Source of the DNA: Candidatus Woesearchaeota archaeon
GTDB taxonomy: Archaea; Nanobdellota; Nanobdellia; UBA10117; JABICX01
Reading direction: 5' to 3'
Assembly (NCBI GenBank): GCA_018652045.1
Contig: JABICX010000001.1
Span: 45,354-109,353, forward strand
DNA length: 64,000 bases
Part shown: positions 1 to 50,873 of the stretch, piece by piece
How the letters are laid out: the number at the start of each line of letters is the position of its first letter
Position numbering within the stretch: the stretch's first letter is position 1
Translations under genes and position numbers: made by a program
The notes under the pieces: generated by a model
Seen by the model: only the letters and a program-made list of their open reading frames with translations
Database searches by the model: none
Told to the model about the DNA's origin: nothing

Positions 1-2826
1 TGGGTAGACGCAACTCGGATCGGAACCTGGAGAGATGTAGTTGTCAACCTAACATCTTCTGACACAAACAACCAATCAACTTTCCTAGACTGGAATAAGA
101 CGCTAGTTGGATATTGGAGCATGGACGCAGTTTCAGGATCAACCGTACTTGACAACTCAACCTGGCAGAACAACGGAACTCTCGAAGGTGGTGCTACACC
201 AACCCAAGGTAAGTTCGGCAAAGGAATGAAGTTTAATGGTGATGATGAAGTAATTAGAATGGGTGAGATCACTTCGGGACACCCACTCATGCTAGCTAAC
301 TCAAATATAACAATATCTGCATGGTTTAAACAATATAGTGGAGATACATACCAACGAATTGTTGATAAATCCACGGCAGGTAATAGTGCAAATGGTTACG
401 GGCTTGCTGCGCATACTAATCGAGATATTTACTTATTAGTTGACGGCTCTTATTATCGGACAGATACTAGTGCATATAATTTTGGAGAATGGACGCACGT
501 TGTGGGTGTTGTAACTGAAGATACTTTTGAAATATATATTGATGGTGTAAATCAAACGGGAGGTAGTTGGTCTGGAAGCGCTAAGTTACCTCCAGATGCT
601 ACAGCTAATCTAAGTATTGGATCATGGAATCATGCAGATGCTAGAGAAGTTAACGGATCAATCGATGAAGTTCAGATCTACTCTCGAGCATTATCAGCTA
701 ATGAAATACGCGCATTGTACGATGCTAACGCTAATCAGTATAACAAGACATGGACAGGTCTGACTGAGGGACAGAGCTATACATACACAGGATATTCTGT
801 TGACTTGGGAGCTAACAAGAACGAGACAGCTGAGAGAACAGTCACAATCAACAACATACCAACTACCTTCACAAGCGTAGCTATGGCATCATCAACGGCA
901 GCTAACATCACGTCTGACAACCTGTCAGTTAGCTGGACAGATGGAACTGATGGAGACTCGGACACAATATACAACATCACTGACTGGAGAGTAAATGGAT
1001 CTAGTATAGCTGTCCTTAACCTGGCTTTTGATAGTAACCGTTCTGGAACAACTACAGCAGTTATCCGAGACTATTCAACTTTTGAGAACAACGCAACTCT
1101 GGGAAATACAACTACCGGTAGAGCACCAGCATGGACATCTTCTTGTCAGATTGGAGGATGTTACGAATTCACTGCCGCAGGAGAGGAGAAGATAAATATT
1201 TCCAATACGGTTTTGACTGGTTTAAGTACGGTCACAACTGAATTATGGATTAAAACTTCTGGATCTGCTCAGGGAGTAATAACTGGAGCAAATCCTACCT
1301 ATAATAATGAGTATCTAATTTACGATCAATCATCCTTACGGCTCTATGTACATGATTCTAATTGGAATAGTGGCGTTTCAATTAATAATAATGCATGGCG
1401 TCATGTTGTATTCACCTGGGACGGATCAAACGGAACTGTAAAATTATTCGTAGATGGTGTGTTCCAAAATTCTGGTACAGTAAATACAGGGGCATTAACT
1501 ATACCTGTAAATGGATTATGGCTTGGAGCAGAGCAAGATTCCGTTGGTGGTGGATTCCAAGCATCGCAAGAGTTAGTAGGGTTCTTAGATGAAGTACGCA
1601 TTTACAACCGGAGCTTGAGTGCAGATCAAATCTGGGCCAACTATGTGGCAGGTAATGCCTCTCTCTCAGTTCAGACTATGGTCTCAGATGAGACTGGCAA
1701 GAATGATGTATGGTCGGTGTCTGTAACTCCTAATGACTTGTATGAAGATGGACCTAACACAACATCTGATTCGTTGACCCTTGTAAGCACAGCTCCAAAT
1801 CCACCAACCTCTATCACACCAGCATCTGGAACATGGGGTGGAGACAACAGCTCAATGGAGCTGAACTGTTCAGGCGCGTCGGACAATGACTCTGACACAA
1901 TAACATACTCAATAGAATCTAACCGAACAGGTAGCTGGACTGAGGTAACTACTGGCCTGGCAGACGGCAACTACTCGTGGGACATATCTAGCTACGACAA
2001 TATAGTTGGAATCAACTTCAGATGTTGGGCAACAGATGGAGCACTTAACTCTAGCAAGTATACTGCAAGCGCAAGTGTAAACTTGGACAACTGGGGACCA
2101 CGATGGAGCAGCCCAAGCAAGAACGCATCTACAGTCTATAATGGATTGAACATCAGCCTGAACACAACCTGGACAGAGACACAGGCAGCAGATGTCGGGC
2201 TCGCAGGATTCATCTTCTCATCAAACGACAGTGGTAGCTGGACAAATGGCAGCTATACAGTACTTAACGGAACAACCAATGTATCTACATATGAACTTGA
2301 GGTAACAACCTCTGCAGGTAATACGGTTGGTTGGTACTTCTGGACCAATGATACACAGGGTAACACAAACCAGACTGATCTACAGACATTCACTATCGGC
2401 AACAAGTCCATCGCAATAGCAGTTTCTGACCTTCTAGATGCAGGGGTACGGTGGGTAATTCAGAGTCTTCCATCAACTAGAGCGAACGCGTCATATAACA
2501 ACGGAACATCTGACACGAGCTATTATGTAACCGTTACTTCAGTTGGCACAAATGTAGACCTATCTATTGCAGCAGATGGCAACCTGACAACATCTGGCGG
2601 ATCAGTTCTGGACATCAGTAACGAAGAGTTCAGATACAATACTTCTGAAACAGATGTAACTAATAGCGACTATTACACCATGGCTACAACCAACAACACA
2701 ATTGGTTCTAACATTGTCAACGGTACAACTTCCTACATGAAGTTCTACCTAACGGTTCCAGGTAACCAAACTGTCGGAATTTACAATAACACATTATCTG
2801 TCTATGCAGAGGAGAGTTCACTATAA
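1..2826 (+). CDS. Large secreted surface protein with two LamG/concanavalin-like domains and Ig-like repeats (5' truncated by window edge)
   Basis: Frame is open from base 1 (WVDATRIGTWRDVVVNLTSSD...) into ORF 121..2826; two LamG-like blocks (GYWSMD...GSIDEVQIYSRALSANEIRALY and ...GFLDEVRIYNRSLSADQIWANY); many N-x-S/T sequons. Confidence 0.85.
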   Translation, partial: WVDATRIGTWRDVVVNLTSSDTNNQSTFLDWNKTLVGYWSMDAVSGSTVLDNSTWQNNGTLEGGATPTQGKFGKGMKFNGDDEVIRMGEITSGHPLMLANSNITISAWFKQYSGDTYQRIVDKSTAGNSANGYGLAAHTNRDIYLLVDGSYYRTDTSAYNFGEWTHVVGVVTEDTFEIYIDGVNQTGGSWSGSAKLPPDATANLSIGSWNHADAREVNGSIDEVQIYSRALSANEIRALYDANANQYNKTWTGLTEGQSYTYTGYSVDLGANKNETAERTVTINNIPTTFTSVAMASSTAANITSDNLSVSWTDGTDGDSDTIYNITDWRVNGSSIAVLNLAFDSNRSGTTTAVIRDYSTFENNATLGNTTTGRAPAWTSSCQIGGCYEFTAAGEEKINISNTVLTGLSTVTTELWIKTSGSAQGVITGANPTYNNEYLIYDQSSLRLYVHDSNWNSGVSINNNAWRHVVFTWDGSNGTVKLFVDGVFQNSGTVNTGALTIPVNGLWLGAEQDSVGGGFQASQELVGFLDEVRIYNRSLSADQIWANYVAGNASLSVQTMVSDETGKNDVWSVSVTPNDLYEDGPNTTSDSLTLVSTAPNPPTSITPASGTWGGDNSSMELNCSGASDNDSDTITYSIESNRTGSWTEVTTGLADGNYSWDISSYDNIVGINFRCWATDGALNSSKYTASASVNLDNWGPRWSSPSKNASTVYNGLNISLNTTWTETQAADVGLAGFIFSSNDSGSWTNGSYTVLNGTTNVSTYELEVTTSAGNTVGWYFWTNDTQGNTNQTDLQTFTIGNKSIAIAVSDLLDAGVRWVIQSLPSTRANASYNNGTSDTSYYVTVTSVGTNVDLSIAADGNLTTSGGSVLDISNEEFRYNTSETDVTNSDYYTMATTNNTIGSNIVNGTTSYMKFYLTVPGNQTVGIYNNTLSVYAEESSL

Positions 2827-3080
2827 TGGCAACAAAGCAAGCAGCACATAAGAGAACATTCAGAGAGATCAGAAAGTCTCTCCTACTGAACCTTACACAG
2901 GGTCAGAAGAATGTCAATCAGTTAGCTGATGCTGCCCATGTTAACTGGCACACAACACGTAGACAGATGATCTACTTAATCGGGTTTGGATATGCTCGCT
3001 ACGTTGTCAACTATCCACAAGTAAAGATCTTTGAAATCACTGAAAAGGGGATGGATGCTCTAGATCATAAAAAGGTATAA
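2826..3080 (+). CDS. Small winged-helix DNA-binding protein
   Basis: 84 aa; start overlaps upstream stop (TAATG); helix-turn-helix-like segment NQLADAAHVNWHTTRRQMIYLIGFGYARYV. Confidence 0.7.
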   Translation: MATKQAAHKRTFREIRKSLLLNLTQGQKNVNQLADAAHVNWHTTRRQMIYLIGFGYARYVVNYPQVKIFEITEKGMDALDHKKV

Positions 3081-3085
3081 TAAGT

Positions 3086-3667
3086 TTGAAAATGGAATAT
3101 ACTATGCATAAGATTAGTTTGATTCTAGCACTGTTGGTATTAATGACACCACAAGCATCCGCTATGAAAGGCGTCGGCATTGTATATGGTACTGTGATAA
3201 GTAATGTTGACGAAGGCGAAACAGCCTGCTTTGACTATGGTGTATACAACCCTTGGGATCAGGATGTAAAGATCATACTAACTGTATCAGGTGACCTTGC
3301 TGAGCTTAATGCATTTAGCGAGAATGTTGATGTGCCTGCAGGCACAACCCATGACAAAGCAAAGTCGGTTGAGATTTGCTTTGATGTACCTAAAGTCTAT
3401 TCTTACACCTGTCCCGATACCCCGATAGTGCTATCAGGTAAAGTAATCGCTACAGAGTATTATCCAGCAGGTGTATCTGGAACTGGCTCAACAACCTCGG
3501 TTTCAGCAGCAGCGCCGCTTGAGATGAGAGTCAGATGCGATGCAGACAAGGGAGTCCAATTCACGACACAATACTTCTTTATTGGTGCAGGCATAGCGAT
3601 TCTGCTAGCCGCACTATATGTAATGAGAAAATTCTTCAAAACCCATAAAATCATCAAAAAGCGCTAA
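3086..3667 (+). CDS. Secreted protein with signal peptide and C-terminal TM anchor
   Basis: N-terminal hydrophobic segment ending ...TPQASA, C-terminal IGAGIAILLAALYVM followed by basic tail. Start could be 3104. Confidence 0.7.
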   Translation: MKMEYTMHKISLILALLVLMTPQASAMKGVGIVYGTVISNVDEGETACFDYGVYNPWDQDVKIILTVSGDLAELNAFSENVDVPAGTTHDKAKSVEICFDVPKVYSYTCPDTPIVLSGKVIATEYYPAGVSGTGSTTSVSAAAPLEMRVRCDADKGVQFTTQYFFIGAGIAILLAALYVMRKFFKTHKIIKKR

Positions 3668-3763
3668 TTTTCCCTTTTACCCCCTCAAAATGGTGAAAAT
3701 ATGGGCTAAAAAGAGGCATTTTTAGGCATTTTTAAGGCTATAGTGGAAAGATTTTAATACTAC

Positions 3764-3824
3764 TGTTAATGTAGTTAACACATACATGGTTAAAACTACG
3801 TTAAATATGTTAATGTAGTTAACA
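3764..3824. promoter_or_regulatory. Two identical 17-bp palindromic operator-like sites (TGTTAATGTAGTTAACA) plus a degenerate third between them
   Basis: TGTTAATGTAGTTAACA at 3764-3780 and 3808-3824; GGTTAAAACTACGTTAAAT between them; second site overlaps the ATG at 3824. Confidence 0.6.
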
Positions 3825-4639
3825 TGTCTTTGGGGCAAAAAGTGGCTGACCAGCCGAAGAAGTTAGTAGGCATAGGTATAGGTAGATATACTCTAATTAG
3901 CTATAGCCCCAAACTATCTAGTTCTGAGCTAGTAAAGTTCCATTATGCGCTTTTAGGTAGAGGCAAACAACCTGGCCTTCTTCGAAAAACGCATAGCATA
4001 AAGCTAGCTAATTCTGTTATTCTTGCCCCCAAGGCATATAGTAAAGAAGTTCTTGACTTCTTGAGAACTTGGAAATGTAACATTTCCACGAAGGAAATCA
4101 TAAACAAGGTTTCCGATGAGAAAAAGTTGCAACAGGCTGCTAAGAAGCTTGTAGCTAAGCGACGAGACATATCAGATGTCCTACTTGTGGACGCCAGCCT
4201 GATCTCAAAAAAGGCTAAATCTAGCCCAGTTGTCTGCCTTCTAACTCACTCAAAAACACCACAACGAATCGCACAAAACCTGCAAAGCGAGATTGGCCTA
4301 CCCGTTATCTTTGTACAAGCAGATCAGTTATTCACCCCTAAATATTCTTCCATTGTTGATGCCTTAAAACAAGGTACGAGCCTCATTACATCAAAGACTT
4401 TTGCCCCAAAGACTTTGTTTGTCTATTCGACAAAGCACATAAAAGGCTCAGATAAAGTCCGCTTCTTTTACGATCTAAAAGGACGCGGCAAACAAAAGGG
4501 TATCATAGAGAGCACTCGTAGCGAGTTCTTTGCTAAGTCAGTGATTATCGCACCTAGCAAGAGCGTCGAAGCTATGCAGAAGTTCTTGACCAAGTGGAAG
4601 TGTCAGTACGAAAAAATGGAGGTAGCTGAAAGTGTCTAG
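3824..4639 (+). CDS. Conserved-looking protein with an internally duplicated domain (GRGKQ...SVI.AP...FL..WKC), function unknown
   Basis: 271 aa; N- and C-terminal ~70-aa segments clearly align (VKFHYALLGRGKQPGLL...NSVILAPK...FLRTWKC / VRFFYDLKGRGKQKGII...KSVIIAPS...FLTKWKC). Confidence 0.75.
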   Translation: MSLGQKVADQPKKLVGIGIGRYTLISYSPKLSSSELVKFHYALLGRGKQPGLLRKTHSIKLANSVILAPKAYSKEVLDFLRTWKCNISTKEIINKVSDEKKLQQAAKKLVAKRRDISDVLLVDASLISKKAKSSPVVCLLTHSKTPQRIAQNLQSEIGLPVIFVQADQLFTPKYSSIVDALKQGTSLITSKTFAPKTLFVYSTKHIKGSDKVRFFYDLKGRGKQKGIIESTRSEFFAKSVIIAPSKSVEAMQKFLTKWKCQYEKMEVAESV

Positions 4640-5498
4640 AAAGTTTAGCTTCGTGACTGAGAGAAAGATACAGTACCTAGAGAACTCTCTCGCAAGGTTA
4701 CAGGCTAGACGGACAGAGGTAGTAGATAGGCTAGATTGGCTGAACACTGCATATAGTGAGAACATCGTTGACTATGAGCATTACATCATGCAGAGAAGTG
4801 TCCTGCTTAACGGGAAGACTGTAGATAGCTGGGACGCAGATTGGATTGCTCGGAGAACACAGATTGAAGAGACGCTGCACGCATTGCATTACGGTAGAGC
4901 AACAGCTGATGTAACACGCGCAGCAAAGAAGGCGTTCGGTATAGCCGCTGTATTCATAATGATCCTTGCGGCATTAGCTGGAATGCAGGCACAAGTACCA
5001 ATCACTGGATTTGCAGGAGATAGCTCAGGATTTGTAGCTGAAGCAAATATCACTGCATACTTTGCAGTAGCAGCATCCGAGAATCTCGCAGATGGAATAG
5101 AGTTCAGTACGATAGTTGCAGGTACAAATAACAATAACGCTTCAGACAATTACAACAACGATAGTAGCGGAAGCTCAATGTATCTATCAGTATCAAACGA
5201 CTCTAACGTGCCAATAGACTTCTGTCTAGCAGCAGATCAGAAGATGAAGAGCGGCACAGATGCAATAGAGTTAGCTAACTTTGTATGGAATAGCTCAACC
5301 TCAACAGACGCGTCAACACCAACTCTAGCAAGCGCAACAGCAATGACAACAAGCTTCGTCAGCGCAGATACGGCAGTTACGGGTGGATTAAGTGAGTACT
5401 TGAGATTCTGGCTATCAGTACCTCTTGGACAGACAGCAGGAACATACAATAACACAGTTACCTTAAGAGCGGTTCAGAATGGACAATCATGTAGTTAG
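4632..5498 (+). CDS. Membrane-anchored surface protein: cytosolic coiled region, TM, extracellular beta-rich domain
   Basis: 288 aa; TM FGIAAVFIMILAALAGM followed by PITGFAG; C-terminal domain resembles the end of the 1-2826 protein (YLRFWLSVPLGQTAGTYNNTVTL vs YMKFYLTVPGNQTVGIYNNTLSV). Confidence 0.75.
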   Translation: MSRKFSFVTERKIQYLENSLARLQARRTEVVDRLDWLNTAYSENIVDYEHYIMQRSVLLNGKTVDSWDADWIARRTQIEETLHALHYGRATADVTRAAKKAFGIAAVFIMILAALAGMQAQVPITGFAGDSSGFVAEANITAYFAVAASENLADGIEFSTIVAGTNNNNASDNYNNDSSGSSMYLSVSNDSNVPIDFCLAADQKMKSGTDAIELANFVWNSSTSTDASTPTLASATAMTTSFVSADTAVTGGLSEYLRFWLSVPLGQTAGTYNNTVTLRAVQNGQSCS

Positions 5499-5566
5499 TT
5501 CTAACTTTAGTTTTCTTGGGATAGTAAAACCTTCTTTTCTAAAGAAGGGATTACGTTCAGAATGGA
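5472..5566. repeat. 12-bp direct repeats (GTTCAGAATGGA) at 5472-5483 and 5555-5566 bounding a 71-nt insert
   Basis: Exact 12-mer read twice; first copy is in frame inside the 3' end of CDS 4632-5498. Confidence 0.7.
5508..5552 (+). repeat. ~45-nt dispersed element matching, in inverted orientation, the tRNA-Val(GAC) intron at 29912-29955
   Basis: ACCTTCTTTTCTAAAGAAGGGATT (5529-5552) is the exact reverse complement of 29912-29935; flanking TAGTTTTCTTGGG matches TAGTTTCTTGGGG (rc 29943-29955). Confidence 0.75.
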
Positions 5567-5643
5567 TGGAGTTGTGCTTAGTTTTACGTAGTTACTTTTA
5601 GGTAGTTAGCAATGGTTTTATATCAGAGCCGACAGATTAAATC

Positions 5644-5856
5644 ATGAATATTGGAGATAGGCGCACTCAGGGGGCTATTTTTGTAGTTGTAGTATTAGTT
5701 GCTATGGTTTTCTTTTATGGTGATATTGGAACAACCGAACCCGAACAAAAGAGCGCACCATCCTCGAGCGACGCAACAATTGGTATAACAATCTTGCCCA
5801 GCGAGGCGGTAATTGGTGATAATGGTGGAGAGGTATTAGATGGCGAAGCGAGCTAG
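5644..5856 (+). CDS. Small membrane-anchored protein
   Basis: 70 aa, N-terminal TM GAIFVVVVLVAMVFFYG; overlaps start of next gene. Confidence 0.5.
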   Translation: MNIGDRRTQGAIFVVVVLVAMVFFYGDIGTTEPEQKSAPSSSDATIGITILPSEAVIGDNGGEVLDGEAS

Positions 5857-6475
5857 ACAGGTAAAGAGCAGTAATCGAAGCAACTTTAAAGTTTCAAACG
5901 AGTTGTTAGCAGGATTGCTAGTACTTGCAATCGCAATATCATTTTTCGACATATTCGCAGGAGTTGGTACCGAACTAACTGGATATAGTACTGTTGAGAA
6001 CAATGCATCCGCAGCTGTGACCATAACGTCAGTTACATCTATTAATTGGACAACCGCATCTATTGACTGGGGTTCTGGAGCAGTAACCGCACCTGGACCA
6101 GCTGTATTAGATTCTGAAGCCGGAACTACAAGTTTGGGAACATGGACTGCAAATGGAACTATATTACAATTAGAGAACATTGGTGGAGATGACGTAGTCT
6201 TAAATATGACTAGTAACTCAACTGCCGGGCAGTTTATCGGTGGAAGTAGTCCTACATTTAAGTGGAAGTTTGCGCAAGGTGAAGGAACCTCCTGTACCAG
6301 TATACAAGATACATCGTATACAGCAGTATCTGATGGAACTGGAAAGCAGATATGTGCAGTATTTTACGCAAATGACACAAACGACTTACTTAACATGTCT
6401 ATTGAATTAACAATACCTGCAGACGCAACATCTGGAGCAAAATCTGCAACAATAACTGCTACGGGCGTAGCATAA
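5840..6475 (+). CDS. Membrane-anchored surface protein with beta-rich ectodomain
   Basis: TM LLAGLLVLAIAISFFDIFAGV then ELTGYSTVENN; extracellular Thr/Ser/Asn-rich domain. Confidence 0.7.
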   Translation: MAKRARQVKSSNRSNFKVSNELLAGLLVLAIAISFFDIFAGVGTELTGYSTVENNASAAVTITSVTSINWTTASIDWGSGAVTAPGPAVLDSEAGTTSLGTWTANGTILQLENIGGDDVVLNMTSNSTAGQFIGGSSPTFKWKFAQGEGTSCTSIQDTSYTAVSDGTGKQICAVFYANDTNDLLNMSIELTIPADATSGAKSATITATGVA

Positions 6476-6529
6476 TTTTCATTTGTTTTCTTAAGTAAAC
6501 TATAAATATCTAACCTGATCCTAATAGAT

Positions 6530-7651
6530 ATGAAGTTTAGACTGTTAGTGATCTTATTGTTAGTTGCCTGTATAATATCCGTATCTCAAGCAGAGGCAAT
6601 TGGATTGGCACACGGTCCACTTAAGCACACTTTTGAAGCTGAAAAGGAGATAAACGTTGATTTCAAAGTAATATATTTCCAAGACCTGGACGCATTAGAT
6701 ATTGTATTGGCAGGCGGTTTAACTGATTATGCAACGATGAGTGAGTTACAGGAAGATGGTAGTTTTTCAATTAAAATAGATTTACCAGCAGATATCCCCG
6801 ACCCCGGAACACATGTTCTTACAGTAAGTGCGTATGAAGTACAACCTTCTGCAGGAATGGTGGGTGTTGATACGCGTATTATTAATCGTATACAGGTATT
6901 TGTCCCTTTTGACGGTAAGTATCTTGAGATAACTTCATTTGAAGCAGATAATGTAGTTATTGGTAACCCTGGTAAGTTTAGAATTGGTGTAGAAAATCTT
7001 GGTACTGATGCAATAACTGCAGCATACGCAAAGGTTGAGATATATGATAATCTTACTCAAAAGAAGATTGCTACAGTACAATCCGATCAGATTGGACTAG
7101 ATTCGTTTGAATCAAATGGTTTTGAGGTGAGATGGCCACACCCAACACAAAAAAATAGTATATATGACGCAAAAGCAACAGTGTATTTTGATGGCCAGTC
7201 AACTCAGGCAGACACAACTTTTAGAGTAGGTGAACTACTTGTTGAGGTTACCGATTTCTCAAAACAGGTACAACAAGCAAAGACCGCACCCTTTGAGATA
7301 CAGGTAGAAAGCAAGTGGAACGAAGAGATAACTGATGTGTATGCGAGAGTTATGATCAACGAGAGTGAGTTTAAGTCATATCCGATGGATATTGAGGCGT
7401 GGGGAAGTGAGAATATGACTGCATATGTCGATGCATCTCTATTTGAGGTTGGGGCGATAGTACCTGTAAGTATTGAGCTTCATTTTAATGGCGAGACTCA
7501 CGCAACACAGGGTGAAGTAGAGATTGTTGAAGCAAAGTTTAGTTTAAGTTCACCAAACGTAATATATGTACTTATTGCTATAGCGTTAATCATTGGAATC
7601 TATGTTCTGAAAAAGATAAATATTAATATATCTGTCAGAAAAAAGGTATGA
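6530..7651 (+). CDS. Secreted Ig-like (CARDB/COG1361-like) protein with C-terminal TM
   Basis: 373 aa, N-terminal signal, repeated beta-sandwich-like segments, C-terminal VIYVLIAIALIIGIYVLKK; TATA-like ACTATAAATATC about 30 nt upstream of ATG. Confidence 0.7.
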   Translation: MKFRLLVILLLVACIISVSQAEAIGLAHGPLKHTFEAEKEINVDFKVIYFQDLDALDIVLAGGLTDYATMSELQEDGSFSIKIDLPADIPDPGTHVLTVSAYEVQPSAGMVGVDTRIINRIQVFVPFDGKYLEITSFEADNVVIGNPGKFRIGVENLGTDAITAAYAKVEIYDNLTQKKIATVQSDQIGLDSFESNGFEVRWPHPTQKNSIYDAKATVYFDGQSTQADTTFRVGELLVEVTDFSKQVQQAKTAPFEIQVESKWNEEITDVYARVMINESEFKSYPMDIEAWGSENMTAYVDASLFEVGAIVPVSIELHFNGETHATQGEVEIVEAKFSLSSPNVIYVLIAIALIIGIYVLKKININISVRKKV

Positions 7652-7852
7652 ATGCGGAGTATACCTTTAAGCCTGTTTGTTTTAGGATTAGTCGTAGTCA
7701 TCAGTGTAGGTCTCTATGTACCATATGTTATCGAACAGGTAGGTTGGACGCCAATTGATAAACCTACTGTAATTGATGTTGAATCAGAATCAGGTAATCT
7801 TTTTTTTACAATCGATCCAAAGGAGAATGTAACTAACAATGGCACGAGTTAA
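7652..7852 (+). CDS. Small N-terminally anchored protein
   Basis: 66 aa, N-terminal TM; directly abuts upstream stop. Confidence 0.5.
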   Translation: MRSIPLSLFVLGLVVVISVGLYVPYVIEQVGWTPIDKPTVIDVESESGNLFFTIDPKENVTNNGTS

Positions 7853-8252
7853 CCTGACCAAGGCAGTATTTCTGTATATAGTTATATACATAATTGTGTT
7901 CGGCGCGTCGTATCTTTACTATCTACATAGAACTGAGGTTGTAATCTATGACACAAACTTTATTGTAGGAGATCACGTCGGTTTTGATCTTAACAGTAGT
8001 GTTATCACTTTTGGTATGGTTACACCTGCAGGTTCGGCTTCAAGGGGAATAAACATATTAGAATCTGATGTAGCACGTCATGCAAAGTTATACGCACGTG
8101 GAGATGTGTCTAAGTTCATAAGCACGTCGCAACATAGTGTATACGTTGCACCAGATTCTGCGCAAGAGATTATGCTAGACGTTAGCATACCTGTAGATCT
8201 ATCTTTTGGAAACTATTCAGGTAAGGTTAAGGTCGTTCTACTGACTGATTAG
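7839..8252 (+). CDS. N-terminally anchored secreted protein
   Basis: 137 aa, TM KAVFLYIVIYIIVFGASYLYYL, beta-rich ectodomain ending SIPVDLSFGNYSGKVKVVL. Confidence 0.6.
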   Translation: MARVNLTKAVFLYIVIYIIVFGASYLYYLHRTEVVIYDTNFIVGDHVGFDLNSSVITFGMVTPAGSASRGINILESDVARHAKLYARGDVSKFISTSQHSVYVAPDSAQEIMLDVSIPVDLSFGNYSGKVKVVLLTD

Positions 8253-8288
8253 TAGTGATTTTTAAGCCAGGCAACACGAAAAGTATAA

Positions 8289-9149
8289 ATGTACCTGAAT
8301 GTTAAGTATAATATGAAGCAGTTGTCGAAGAAGGCACTAGCGTTATTGCTAGTGATCTATATCATAGTGCTAGGTAGCAGAGTCTATACGAAAGTAACTG
8401 ATGAAAGCCTAACTAGTTATATGGAATACAACCCGGTCGATAATGTAACGATTAATTTTTATCTTAACTCTGCTCCGACGCAGGTAGAAGACTTACCTGA
8501 TCTCGAATGGAACGAAGGATACACTTACACCGGTTTAGATTTAGACGATTACTTTAATGATACTCCTGGAGAGATTCTTTCATACACATTCACTGGACCG
8601 AATAACATTGCGATAGCGATTGGTAACGATTCGGTTATAACGGCTATTCCCGTATCTAGTAGCTGGACAGGTACAGATTACGTTATTTTTACTGCTTGGG
8701 ATAATTATGGTCTAAGTACTGCAGGCAATAACGCAACACTCACAGTTGTTCCTTACGACGCACCTACGACTTCTTCTAGTAGTGGTAGTGGCGGAGGAGG
8801 CGGAGGAGGAGGCGGCACTAAGTACGAAAAAGCAGTATGTGTAGAGAACTGGGCATGTACTGATTGGACGCGCTGCATTTCAGGCAAGCAAACTAGAACA
8901 TGTCTTGATGTACATAACTGCGACGTTAATGATACAATGCCTTCAATATCACAAACATGTACAGTTAGTGCGGTAGAAGAGTCGTTTGAGATAGAAGATT
9001 TACCTTTTGAACCGATTATAAGAGAGGTATCTCATAGACCCGTATTATGGGTCGTACTCGTGTTGGTAGCAGTGTTCTCATTTGAGTTATACATCTACCT
9101 AAAGCAACGGAAAAAGCGGAGTGCACTCCAGGGGAACTATTATGGATAA
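8289..9149 (+). CDS. Surface protein: Ig-like repeat, poly-Gly linker, TSP1-like Cys domain, C-terminal TM
   Basis: SSGSGGGGGGGGGTKYEKAVCVENWACTDWTRCISGKQTRTCLDVHNC; C-terminal TM VLWVVLVLVAVFSFELYIYL. Confidence 0.75.
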   Translation: MYLNVKYNMKQLSKKALALLLVIYIIVLGSRVYTKVTDESLTSYMEYNPVDNVTINFYLNSAPTQVEDLPDLEWNEGYTYTGLDLDDYFNDTPGEILSYTFTGPNNIAIAIGNDSVITAIPVSSSWTGTDYVIFTAWDNYGLSTAGNNATLTVVPYDAPTTSSSSGSGGGGGGGGGTKYEKAVCVENWACTDWTRCISGKQTRTCLDVHNCDVNDTMPSISQTCTVSAVEESFEIEDLPFEPIIREVSHRPVLWVVLVLVAVFSFELYIYLKQRKKRSALQGNYYG

Positions 9150-12100
9150 AAAAGAGATTCAACGGCAGTATAATAAAGAACTTGTATCTGTTATGATCTT
9201 TACTACACTTATTCTACTAGCCTTTGTCTTTGGAAGCTTATATTATTACACCTGTAGTCTACCTGAGGGATGCTTGTATAATACACATTTTACTATTTTC
9301 TTCGCAATATTGTTTGTTTTACTTTTAGTTATGATACGTATAGAGAAACATAAACTTAAGCATCATATACTACGTATTCATGAAAAGATAAAGAGAAAGA
9401 ACGTCTTGCCACCAAAGCCACTTGATTCAATTGATTCTAAGTTGAAAGGGATTGAGAAGAACCTACGCAAGACTGCACTACCGACGTTAATCAGTGATTT
9501 TTCTAACGTCTTTAAGGAACTAACTGTACGGTTGTTGGGTATAAAAGGTAACTTTACTTACGAAGAGTTACTTGTGCGCCTGGAAAAATCACACTTACAA
9601 GAGAAATTACGTTTAGATTTGATTAAGACTGCAGAGTTTTTGCAATTAGTGCAGTACAAAGACAAAAAGTTATCTCTTAGCGAGTTACGTGAGTTAGTTA
9701 GATACACACGTAATCTTGTACGAATACATAATTTTTATCCACCTAAACCTAAAACACCAAAATACGAGAATTTAAAACCAAAACTACCTTCACCTAAGCA
9801 CGCGCATTACATCGCACTCTTCATAGTGTTGTTTATTGCAGTAGGTGCATATGTATCGGGATCTATGCAAGGTATAACTGGATTTTCTACTTACCAAGTA
9901 ACTGAAGGTACGGGTGGATCAGTTACGGTATTTACCATTGCGGATCAGACTGTTGTAGAGGGACATAACCTATCTATAATTGTATATGCTAACGACTCAG
10001 ATTCTGAAGCAATAACTTTTGACATTGGAGATAGCGATCCTTCCTGGGTAAATATTACAACAATTAGTAGTTCAACTGCAGGTGGCGCAAACGCAACAGG
10101 AAACCTAACCTTTACACCCGCTTCAACGGGAGATACAGGAGATAATTACAATGTAACTATAATTGCGCGTTCAGTTGATAATGACGCAGCTTCGGAGGGA
10201 ATAAATGTTAATGTTACTGAGAACACCGCTCCAACAGCAAACGTAACGATTCCTAACATGACTTGGCCAGAAGATACAGTAAACAATAGTTATGATCTGG
10301 ATGATTACTTTAATGATACTGAAAATGATACGTTGAGTTATACGTATTCAGGTAATACGAACATAGCAATATCAATTGCAAGTGGTGTTGCAACACTCAC
10401 TCCTACGTCAAACTGGAATGGGACTGAAACGATAACCTTCACTGCTTCAGATGGTATTGATACAACCAATTCTAACGCAGTTTTGATGAATGTAACTGGT
10501 GTATATGATCAGGCAGAGATGTCTGGCTTTGCAGTCTTGCCGAGTTCACCACATAACTTGAGTAATCTGACTTGTAGTTGGACTGTGGCGAGTAATGATA
10601 CCACTGCGAACATAACCGCAAATGTTTCGTGGTATATTCTTAATACTTCCTGGCAACTTGAGATGCAGCAGAATAATGTTACCTGTTCCGCAAATGGTGT
10701 GTGTAATGCTTCAGAATTAATATTCTATACCAATACAAGTATAGATGATGTTTGGAATTGTACTGCTAACATATCTGATCAATCAAATTATACTTTCTTT
10801 TCAGCTAATAACACGATCGTTAGCGCAGCACCGACCATACTTACAGTAACTACGAACTCTAATGATTATAATCGTACTCCGATAAATTCTAGCGCAATAT
10901 TTAACGTGACGTGGTCGGATGTAGATACGTTGAACATAAGTACGCATATATGTAGCACCTCTTCAGGTAATACGAGCGGTTGTAATGGAACTGAATTATG
11001 TGGTGTAAACAGCACAAATGCTACGATTATTTCATGTAACTATACTGTTTTAGCTACTGATGTTGTGAACACATCGGTGTGGGTTTTTGCATGCGACGAT
11101 ACTACTTGTTCTAATACTACAACTACTTTTTATGTTAATCAGATACCTGCAATGAATGAAGTAACTAGCACGTTTAACTATCTTAGTGGCACCGGTATAA
11201 CTTTTGGTAATGGTGAGTTTGACGCACCACCTGTTTTAAATCAACAAGCAATGTTTAAACTCAATAGCTCTGCTTTGTATACATTAGATAAGATAAATGT
11301 GTCTAACGCTACGTTCTACATAAGTATAACTGAACTGTTGGGTAACTGGACAGGAGGCATAACTGTATTGAGCATTACAAATCAATCTTGGTTAACAAAC
11401 GATAGTATTGCTGCACTAACTTCCCTGACAGGTACTGAATCTAACTTTACAGAGATTAACACAACTGCGGTTCGAGGTATGAATGTATCTGATTTAGTTA
11501 CTGCTGCATACGCGAGTAATCTGATAAATATTTCACTTAAGATATCTGCAACACAGGGAAGTGGTACGCTTAACGATTCAGAGATACCAACTACTTACTT
11601 TTCAGTTGGAGATAATGACACCGGCAGTACGCTTGGTGGTATGACCTTTAGCACAACTACGAACATAACCGCAAATCTGACAAAGTTGATTCCAGATTAT
11701 AACTGGAACATGAATGTTGTACAAAGTGGACCTGATTTAGATAGTTACTTTTATGATCCAGATGGTTACGATCTGAATTTTAGTACAAGTGGATCATCGT
11801 ATGTAACTGTAGCCATCGCCAATGACACACACATCGCTACATTCACACCTACCTCTGGTTGGTATGGTACTGAGACAATAAACTTCATAGCAACTGATGC
11901 TGCTAATGAGACAATGTATAGTAATCTTGTGAGTCTGACCGTAAACTATGTCGCAGGAGATACAGTTACAACTACAACTACATCTAGTTCCAGTTCGACA
12001 AAAGTTAAACGAATGTCTATAGAACTAACCGCAAATGATATTGAGTTGTATCCAACTGATGCTAAGATTCTCCAAATGCAGGTGTCTAATACGGGAGATG

Positions 12101-12645
12101 TTAATCTTGATAAGATATCTCTTGCAGCATTGTTCCCAAGCATCACCGGTCTATCTGGCAGTCTACAACAGACGTACATATCTCGTCTAGAGCCTGAAGA
12201 GAACGTAACTGTCGAAGTAGCGCTTAAGAGTGAGAATGTTACACCTGGTAAGTATAATGTCACGCTTAATGGAAATGTCGGTGATCCAGCAAGTGTTCGA
12301 GATATCGAAATCTTTACAGTGTGGGTTAAAGAAGATGATGAGAACTCCTTTGCAGGTCGAGTTCGTTTTGTTACTGACTTGTTTAGAACAAATCCTGAAT
12401 GTACGGAGTTGTTACCAAATATAAAAGACGCACAGACTCTGTATAACAATGGGCAAAAAGCACTGGCAGATCAGAAGCTAAGCGCGTTCATCAAAGAATG
12501 TAAAGATCGCATAAGTTCTGATGCAGACAAAACTTTTGCTTCAGAAACACGTGGTGTTTTGGAAGAGAGAAAGGTGGAGATTATTATTGGACTATTTATT
12601 CTTAGCGCATTATACATTTTTTCACTAGTTCTTAACAAATTTTAG
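9142..12645 (+). CDS. Giant surface protein with cytosolic/TM N-terminus and cadherin/Ig-like repeats, C-terminal TM
   Basis: ATG at 9142 preferred over GTG at 9121; TMs near residues 20-75 and ~230; repeats SYDLDDYFNDTENDTLSYTYSG and DLDSYFYDPDGYDLNFSTSG. Confidence 0.8.
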   Translation: MDKKEIQRQYNKELVSVMIFTTLILLAFVFGSLYYYTCSLPEGCLYNTHFTIFFAILFVLLLVMIRIEKHKLKHHILRIHEKIKRKNVLPPKPLDSIDSKLKGIEKNLRKTALPTLISDFSNVFKELTVRLLGIKGNFTYEELLVRLEKSHLQEKLRLDLIKTAEFLQLVQYKDKKLSLSELRELVRYTRNLVRIHNFYPPKPKTPKYENLKPKLPSPKHAHYIALFIVLFIAVGAYVSGSMQGITGFSTYQVTEGTGGSVTVFTIADQTVVEGHNLSIIVYANDSDSEAITFDIGDSDPSWVNITTISSSTAGGANATGNLTFTPASTGDTGDNYNVTIIARSVDNDAASEGINVNVTENTAPTANVTIPNMTWPEDTVNNSYDLDDYFNDTENDTLSYTYSGNTNIAISIASGVATLTPTSNWNGTETITFTASDGIDTTNSNAVLMNVTGVYDQAEMSGFAVLPSSPHNLSNLTCSWTVASNDTTANITANVSWYILNTSWQLEMQQNNVTCSANGVCNASELIFYTNTSIDDVWNCTANISDQSNYTFFSANNTIVSAAPTILTVTTNSNDYNRTPINSSAIFNVTWSDVDTLNISTHICSTSSGNTSGCNGTELCGVNSTNATIISCNYTVLATDVVNTSVWVFACDDTTCSNTTTTFYVNQIPAMNEVTSTFNYLSGTGITFGNGEFDAPPVLNQQAMFKLNSSALYTLDKINVSNATFYISITELLGNWTGGITVLSITNQSWLTNDSIAALTSLTGTESNFTEINTTAVRGMNVSDLVTAAYASNLINISLKISATQGSGTLNDSEIPTTYFSVGDNDTGSTLGGMTFSTTTNITANLTKLIPDYNWNMNVVQSGPDLDSYFYDPDGYDLNFSTSGSSYVTVAIANDTHIATFTPTSGWYGTETINFIATDAANETMYSNLVSLTVNYVAGDTVTTTTTSSSSSTKVKRMSIELTANDIELYPTDAKILQMQVSNTGDVNLDKISLAALFPSITGLSGSLQQTYISRLEPEENVTVEVALKSENVTPGKYNVTLNGNVGDPASVRDIEIFTVWVKEDDENSFAGRVRFVTDLFRTNPECTELLPNIKDAQTLYNNGQKALADQKLSAFIKECKDRISSDADKTFASETRGVLEERKVEIIIGLFILSALYIFSLVLNKF

Positions 12646-12686
12646 CTAGGCGAAGACTTATATATATTGGAATATATACATTAGAC

Positions 12687-29873: not shown

Positions 29874-30013
29874 GGGCCCATGGTCTAGTGGTATGACGTC
29901 GCCTTGACGAGAATCCCTTCTTTAGAAAAGAAGGTCTTCTAACCCCAAGAAACTATTCTTGTGGAAAGATCTCAAAATGGCGGAGGTCCTCAGTTCGATC
30001 CTGAGTGGGCCCA
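29874..30013 (+). tRNA. tRNA-Val(GAC) with 68-nt intron (about 29910-29977)
   Basis: GGGCCCATGGTCTAGTGGTATGACGTCGCCTTGACG|intron|TGGCGGAGGTCCTCAGTTCGATCCTGAGTGGGCCCA; acceptor, T and anticodon stems all pair. Confidence 0.85.
29912..29955 (-). repeat. Intronic copy of the dispersed element also at 5508-5552
   Basis: AATCCCTTCTTTAGAAAAGAAGGT = exact reverse complement of 5529-5552; CCCCAAGAAACTA = near-match to rc of 5508-5520. Confidence 0.75.
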
Positions 30014-30020
30014 CTTCCTA

Positions 30021-50003: not shown

Positions 50004-50873
50004 TTAATCTTTTTTAGTTCGTCCACGCGCTTTCTTTTCTTTGTCAACCATCTTTGATAGTTTCTTAACATTATCTGTGAACGTAGGCATAATCTTGCTG
50101 AAAACTTTAGACATTGCTTTGATTTCAGAATCAACACTATTAATGCTCTTTTGATAATCAGAAACCTTCGTCATGATAGCTTTTTGAGTCTGGTCAACTC
50201 TTTTCTCGATCTCATCAAGATTCTTTGTTAGATCTGCGACCTCTGTGTTGAGCGAAGCCTTCCACTTATCAAGTTTAGCAATCTGATCGTTGAGTTTACT
50301 AAGTTTTTCATCAATTATTGATTCAGTAATCTGTTCGATATCGTCAGTCATAAGTGTAACAGAGTTAGAGTTCTCTTTTGGTGGTGCAGGTGGCTCATCC
50401 ATCTTCATTATTGATGCCGGTGGTGCAGGTGGTACGGGCATATCAGTGGGTAGTGGAAGTGCCATCTTGTGAACGATTGGTAGCGGCAGATTTTGTACAG
50501 GAACTGCTGCTGGCGCTGCTTGCGGAGCAGGCATCTGCGGAGGAGGACCAAAATTGGCAGTGTTTGGATTAAACTTATCTACCTGTGGCTGTGCTGCACC
50601 TGGAAACGTTGGAGCAGCAGGGTTTGCCATTGGTGGCGCCTGTGGAGTTAAGACAGGCGGAGCAGGCATCTGCGGAGGAGGACCGCCCATACCAGGATCG
50701 GTAGGCATCTGGCCGAATTGTAAACCCATTGGTACGTTTGGTTTCATCTGCGTAATACCACCATCCATACCGGGAGGTGGTGGGAAAAAATCATCTTGTG
50801 TGTTGAATTCAGGTGCTGATGGGATCTCAGGCTCAGTGCCTTTGTTCTTTTTAAGAAAATCAAGTAGTGCCAT
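50004..50873 (-). CDS. Pro-rich N-terminus plus coiled-coil protein
   Basis: MALLDFLKKNKG...PPPQMPAPPVLTPQAPP... then long coiled coil ending KKARGRTKKD. Confidence 0.7.
   Translation of the reverse strand: MALLDFLKKNKGTEPEIPSAPEFNTQDDFFPPPPGMDGGITQMKPNVPMGLQFGQMPTDPGMGGPPPQMPAPPVLTPQAPPMANPAAPTFPGAAQPQVDKFNPNTANFGPPPQMPAPQAAPAAVPVQNLPLPIVHKMALPLPTDMPVPPAPPASIMKMDEPPAPPKENSNSVTLMTDDIEQITESIIDEKLSKLNDQIAKLDKWKASLNTEVADLTKNLDEIEKRVDQTQKAIMTKVSDYQKSINSVDSEIKAMSKVFSKIMPTFTDNVKKLSKMVDKEKKARGRTKKD

Follow-up and report, generated by a model that had tools for sequence, protein, structure and literature searches.

A hairpin mini-element family shared by tRNA introns and repeat-flanked intergenic sites in Pacearchaeota

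Introduction

A 71-nt sequence at positions 5484–5554 of the archaeal DNA analyzed here belongs to one family that is found in two kinds of location, within tRNA introns and outside tRNA genes, with duplications of host sequence and a conserved fold. This DNA, hereafter the window, is a 64,000-nt stretch of contig JABICX010000001.1 (assembly GCA_018652045.1), and its genome (G000) is a 685-kb draft of a member of the Pacearchaeota, 88.5% complete. The sequence is best explained, with a probability of roughly 0.7, as one copy of a non-coding mini-element family of Pacearchaeota and related Nanoarchaeia, which is non-autonomous, inserts with long target duplications of variable length and persists as a tRNA intron where bulge–helix–bulge (BHB) splicing removes the copy. 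The origin and spread of archaeal tRNA introns is an open question, and the present family suggests how such introns spread. Insertion at the DNA level would be expected to leave intron copies beyond tRNA genes, bordered by duplicated host sequence. Such a footprint makes the question testable by comparing filled and empty sites between strains.

The Window Copy and the tRNA-Val Intron

The features concerned are the following (R1 is a covariance model built from the family alignment and applied either at a lax threshold or with a cut-off of E<=0.001).

4632–5498, plus strand: open reading frame (ORF) of 288 aa with the insert at its 3′ end; the repeat is the ORF end
5472–5483, plus strand: left direct repeat GTTCAGAATGGA, 12 bp exact, imperfect homology to 5503
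5484–5554, minus strand: inserted mini-element, 71 nt, bounded exactly by the direct repeats (minus-strand sequence GTAATCCCTTCTTTAGAAAAGAAGGTTTTACTATCCCAAGAAAAC...GATTG)
5512–5554, minus strand: conserved family core with covariation (R1, 53.9 bits, E 4.5e-11)
5555–5566, plus strand: right direct repeat GTTCAGAATGGA, 12 bp exact, imperfect homology to 5586
29874–30014, plus strand: tRNA-Val(GAC) gene (ARAGORN with introns)
29911–29978, plus strand: tRNA-Val intron, family member, 68 nt (ARAGORN; R1 match 29910–29952, 63 bits)

The original prediction had reported that 5529–5552 is the exact 24-nt reverse complement of 29912–29935 (AATCCCTTCTTTAGAAAAGAAGGT) in the tRNA-Val intron, and this is confirmed. 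The similarity, said to extend over about 45 nt, covers 41 nt at 88% identity when measured without gaps (5512–5552 against 29912–29952; BLAST E = 7.6e-9 in its own genome), and shuffled windows give an expectation of 0.01 such sites per window on average. Chance hairpin similarity is ruled out by these shuffles, by BLAST and by the number of further members. The element that had been placed at 5508–5552 is real, but the true insert is longer. A third exact copy of the 24-mer is absent from the whole 685-kb draft. The 24-nt identity alone is no proof of direct copying between the two loci, which need not be copies of each other, because the 19-nt hairpin CCTTCTTTAGAAAAGAAGG recurs in other families of the class (in G025 and in G204), and G002, a relative, has the window copy's GTAA/TTAC arms as well (G002:C26:155354). 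In the window copy these arms lie at 5554–5551 (GTAA) and 5527–5524 (TTAC), with UC on one side of the internal loop and UU on the other, and enclose the stem CCTTCTTT/AAAGAAGG at 5548–5530, then TATCCCAAGAAA.

The tRNA-Val gene is complete apart from the interruption by its intron, at which a BHB can be read by eye (TTGA/TCAA central helix, 3-nt bulges; this would put the cuts one base upstream); a strict scan missed this intron and two other known ones. The window copy, on the other side, interrupts no tRNA, and a decayed intron-bearing tRNA at 5508 is ruled out, since there is no tRNA body there.

An Insertion at the End of a Reading Frame

None of 6000 random 71-nt stretches of the window's genome is abutted by a repeat of at least 12 bp as the insert is. 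The ORF at 4632–5498, for which no Pfam match was found, ends in the first repeat copy as VQNGQSCS-stop, while the second copy reads VQNGWSCA-stop; the insert is antisense to the ORF, which is complete when unspliced. An orthologue in G002 (34% identical) has a duplicated C-terminus around a hairpin insert as well, with repeat copies identical at 32 of 34 bases. That hairpin is of another family, and the nucleotide of the gene next to the element end is the same one as in the window. The homologues in G005, G007 and G010 carry no insert. The shared site indicates either an insertion older than the two genera, since converted or kept, or a hot spot.

In both genera the C-terminus behind the insert (5555–5586 in the window) still reads VQxGxSCx-stop, as if translated, though it lies past a stop codon. 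One could therefore suppose that the window copy is an archaeal BHB intron spliced from the mRNA, whose removal would place the second repeat directly after the first C-terminal codons and yield a normal C-terminus; the second repeat of G002 (VQKGTSCS-stop) and the serine that the window's genome keeps there via a different codon are in line with this. It is nevertheless highly improbable. The ORF needs no splicing to be complete, and an acceptable BHB with cuts exactly one repeat unit apart was found on neither strand of the window copy, which counts only weakly because the strict scanner also missed known tRNA introns. Most likely, the window copy was inserted long ago and does no harm, the ORF having remained intact.

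The ORF lies in a cluster of secreted or surface-like proteins (window 1–12650), four of which were tested and gave no Pfam match. Its C-terminal domain (..RFWLSVP..GTYNNTV..) also occurs in the ORF at 121–2826 and elsewhere in the genome. Another direct repeat of the window, GCGGAGCAGGCATCTGCGGAGGAGGACC, is exact over 28 bp with a spacing of 135 bp (50522–50684).

Family Members in the Same Genome

Comparison of the intron-bearing tRNAs of the genome revealed a common core, GAATCCC-hairpin-GGTCTTCYAACCCCAAA, in the introns of tRNA-Val, tRNA-Thr(CGT), tRNA-Arg(TCG) and tRNA-Met(CAT), and a weaker relative in the tRNA-Tyr intron. One intron sequence in several tRNA genes is the mark by which intron transposition is recognized. 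A further copy starts directly behind tRNA-Ala(TGC) in the 16S–23S rRNA spacer. Members beyond the window were thus found in its own genome and in relatives. Of the two readings offered in the original prediction, a mini-element that is mobile or copied and a common RNA-processing hairpin, their distribution over several tRNA introns, the rRNA spacer and intergenic sites flanked by direct repeats supports the first. Another intron family, unrelated to this one, shows a similar pattern: the tRNA-Phe(GAA) intron is copied outside any tRNA (47 nt, 91%, E 7e-13), at G000:C4:96447-96493, upstream of tRNA-Val(CAC).

Fold and Covariation

The family consensus can be written N3-A-UC-CCUUUCUUU..AAAGAAAGG-UC-U-N3'-..ACCCCAAAGAA. 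It describes a fold of RNA type, in which variable but complementary arms surround a UC/UC internal loop and a CCUUU../..AAAGG hairpin, with ACCCCAAAGAA trailing; the core measures about 36–45 nt and whole inserts 36–130 nt. Covariation of the arms around the hairpin is seen in an alignment of 13 cores (A2). Over 45 matches, standard pairs fill 97% of the pair cells, a figure favoured by the fold having been derived from the same family; with a slid partner, no more than 77% are filled. Double changes, 51 against 12 in shuffles of these 45 matches, are the stronger evidence for the fold. This covarying RNA motif has no match in Rfam. Box C (RUGAUGA) is absent from all 13 aligned cores, and a C/D box sRNA is ruled out on these two grounds.

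Distribution in Relatives

R1 at the lax threshold matched G000 at 7 sites, G001 at 3 and G002 at about 31; with E<=0.001, matches were obtained in 9 of 280 genomes of the class, among them G002 with 15 copies and G204 with six. A search of the tRNA-Val intron against 56 relatives gave further matches. Scanning genome contigs for the exact core pattern identified the Pacearchaeota bins Meg19_1012_Bin_180 (G001) and Meg22_810_Bin_162 (G002), both of the same taxonomic family as the window's genome, and also a core in the tRNA-Phe intron of the Micrarchaeota bin AUK095, from another phylum; the pattern matches in bacteria and in one Euryarchaeota bin may be due to chance. In G204, a member of another family of the class, half of the copies are in tRNA introns and half are intergenic.

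Two side observations concern these genomes. In G025, from another family of the class, one 20-nt hairpin occurs five times (including G025:C2:9835), three times in tRNA genes with multiple, partly non-canonical introns, once beside a duplicated tRNA 5′ end and once just behind a protein gene. The Micrarchaeota tRNA-Phe intron, 180 nt long (locus L076 3344-3515), contains a second, inverted model match besides the family core.

Direct Repeats Around Inserts in G002

About 14 of the 15 copies in G002 at E<=0.001 lie outside tRNA genes, and seven of the 15 stand between direct repeats of 12, 22–23, 23, 24 (34 with mismatches), 29–34, 43 and 53 bp; at random sites of this repeat-rich genome, repeats of at least 12 bp occur in 71 of 1500 cases (4.7%). 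Because these direct repeats of 12–53 bp are host sequence, they restore the ends and starts of genes and the 3′ ends of tRNAs. For instance, two overlapping genes meet in the 33-bp repeat at G002 C28:63668, one with its end and the other with its start, and both are preserved.

A census of 368 kb of G002 yielded 56 repeat–insert–repeat structures, 47 of them outside long ORFs; the corresponding numbers are 3 for G000 (382 kb) and 1 for the control G006 (360 kb). The comparison was limited to inserts outside long ORFs because in G006 nearly every repeat falls within a long reading frame. Of the 47 G002 inserts, 20 include a stem of 7 bp or more, against 36 of 470 random pieces. Several hairpin families are represented among the G002 inserts, and the one described here is just one of them. 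Eleven of the 56 structures touch one of 29 tRNA genes, which make up 0.7% of the sequence, and in 10 of these 11 the repeat covers the tRNA 3′ end and has its start in the T-arm, 16–22 nt inside the gene.

Further hairpin mini-insert families were noticed on contigs C28, C8 and C21 of G002, e.g., CTCCCTTTTCTTT..AAAGAAAAGGTAAGTTTCCAAAAGAAA, GTCCTTCTGCTGAAGGGACCCACAGC.. and GCAAACCCTTT..GTTTGCATTCCCAAA, and the density of mini-inserts amounts to about 15 structures per 100 kb with overlaps removed. For ten of the 29 tRNA genes the 3′ end is present again behind an insert, and annotation may list these extra copies as tRNA fragments.

Clustering at gene and tRNA ends would also be expected if the hairpin were a functional RNA or a protein-binding site, serving as a signal for processing, the 3′ end or stability, and if selection rather than mobility accounted for its presence in tRNA introns, in tRNA trailers and at the 3′ ends of mRNAs. 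The compensatory changes speak for selection on the fold, and the window gene and its G002 orthologue both bear a hairpin insert at the same site. Such a signal is still an unlikely explanation, as copies occur on either strand relative to the gene, with the window copy antisense to its ORF, the core is missing from most of the 280 genomes of the class, and duplications of host sequence up to 53 bp around the strong G002 copies are left unexplained.

Proposed Mechanism and Carriers

According to the mini-element explanation, copies would move as DNA or via cDNA into staggered breaks of variable width, by means of an enzyme probably supplied in trans. Insertion near a gene end would be tolerated, with the long duplication rebuilding the gene, whereas insertion into a tRNA body would be tolerated only where a BHB forms and the splicing endonuclease can remove the copy; such spliceable tRNA copies would be what is annotated as tRNA introns.

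Several points weigh against this explanation. No transposition was observed, and a single ordinary transposase would not be expected to produce repeats of such variable length. The window repeat is exact over 12 bp only, and no clear flanking repeats are present at the canonical tRNA introns of the window's genome. The hairpin is short and pyrimidine/purine-biased, so that single copies can converge, and all genomes are draft metagenome bins, in which repeats could be misassembled. As to the machinery, reverse transcriptase (PF00078) is absent from the incomplete genomes G000, G001 and G002, with two in G009; Cas1 (PF01867) is absent from eight genomes, and a DDE_Tnp_1 transposase from G000 and G001.

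Known carriers were also considered. A group II intron or retroelement has no reverse transcriptase to draw on in the 88.5% complete draft of the window's genome, and integration by Cas1 (CRISPR or casposon) disagrees with both the lack of Cas1 and repeat lengths that are variable rather than fixed. A tRNA-targeting virus or plasmid found no match in phage records, one pattern match in a viral contig being taken as chance. The element ends GGAATCCC and CCCCAAAC, read directly, are not complementary, i.e., terminal inverted repeats are lacking; as the duplications of 12–53 bp are not fixed and G000 and G001 have no DDE_Tnp_1 partner transposase, a miniature inverted-repeat transposable element (MITE) of a DDE insertion sequence (IS) is rejected. 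A small IS family resembling IS1634/IS1549 might instead move the copies as MITEs, since such elements make direct repeats of 8–514 bp, and long variable repeats are reported for IS1634 and IS1549 (PMC2266710). G002 does have one transposase gene. It is of IS5 type, however, and the window's genome has none, which together with ends that are not inverted repeats makes this origin very unlikely.

A broader version of the mini-element explanation is tentative, and we would place it somewhat short of even odds: the family may represent archaeal introners, that is, a self-spreading RNA-structured mini-element of DPANN archaea with long target duplications, preferring tRNA T-loops and 3′ ends as well as gene ends, becoming an intron where BHB-compatible, and serving as the missing source of archaeal tRNA introns.

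Comparison With Known Systems

Eukaryotic introners are mobile elements turned introns, with target duplication. The present family is much smaller, and archaeal endonuclease splicing takes the place of the spliceosome. Introners are mentioned by Rogers and Bendich (2025, PMC11782384), who proposed for archaeal introns as well an entry into DNA breaks that left direct repeats behind; the repeats there average 11 bp, and in the parts of that article drawn on here no archaeal intron family is seen away from its host genes. IS1634/IS1549 (PMC2266710) likewise have direct repeats that are long and variable, but those are full transposons with inverted repeats and transposase. In Nanoarchaeum equitans, C/D box sRNAs are small structured RNAs located in a tRNA intron and beside genes and are thought to be mobile (PMC3491384). 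The likeness extends to the small structured RNA, the tRNA-intron and gene-side sites and the nanoarchaeal host, whereas the present family has no C box in any aligned core.

The original prediction was only partly right in stating that dispersed repeats are not known among archaeal tRNA introns: intron transposition between tRNA genes has been described in Thermoproteales, where near-identical introns in unrelated tRNA genes were interpreted as having spread recently (Fujishima et al., 2010, as far as described in PMC4090602); the mechanism was called unknown in that review. The present family resembles that case in having the same intron in different tRNA genes and differs from it in its occurrence in Pacearchaeota (DPANN), its copies outside tRNA genes, its flanking direct repeats and its covarying fold. 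Relative to the open-access literature, with an earlier description elsewhere being possible, what is new is this form of archaeal tRNA-intron spread, with footprints at the DNA level.
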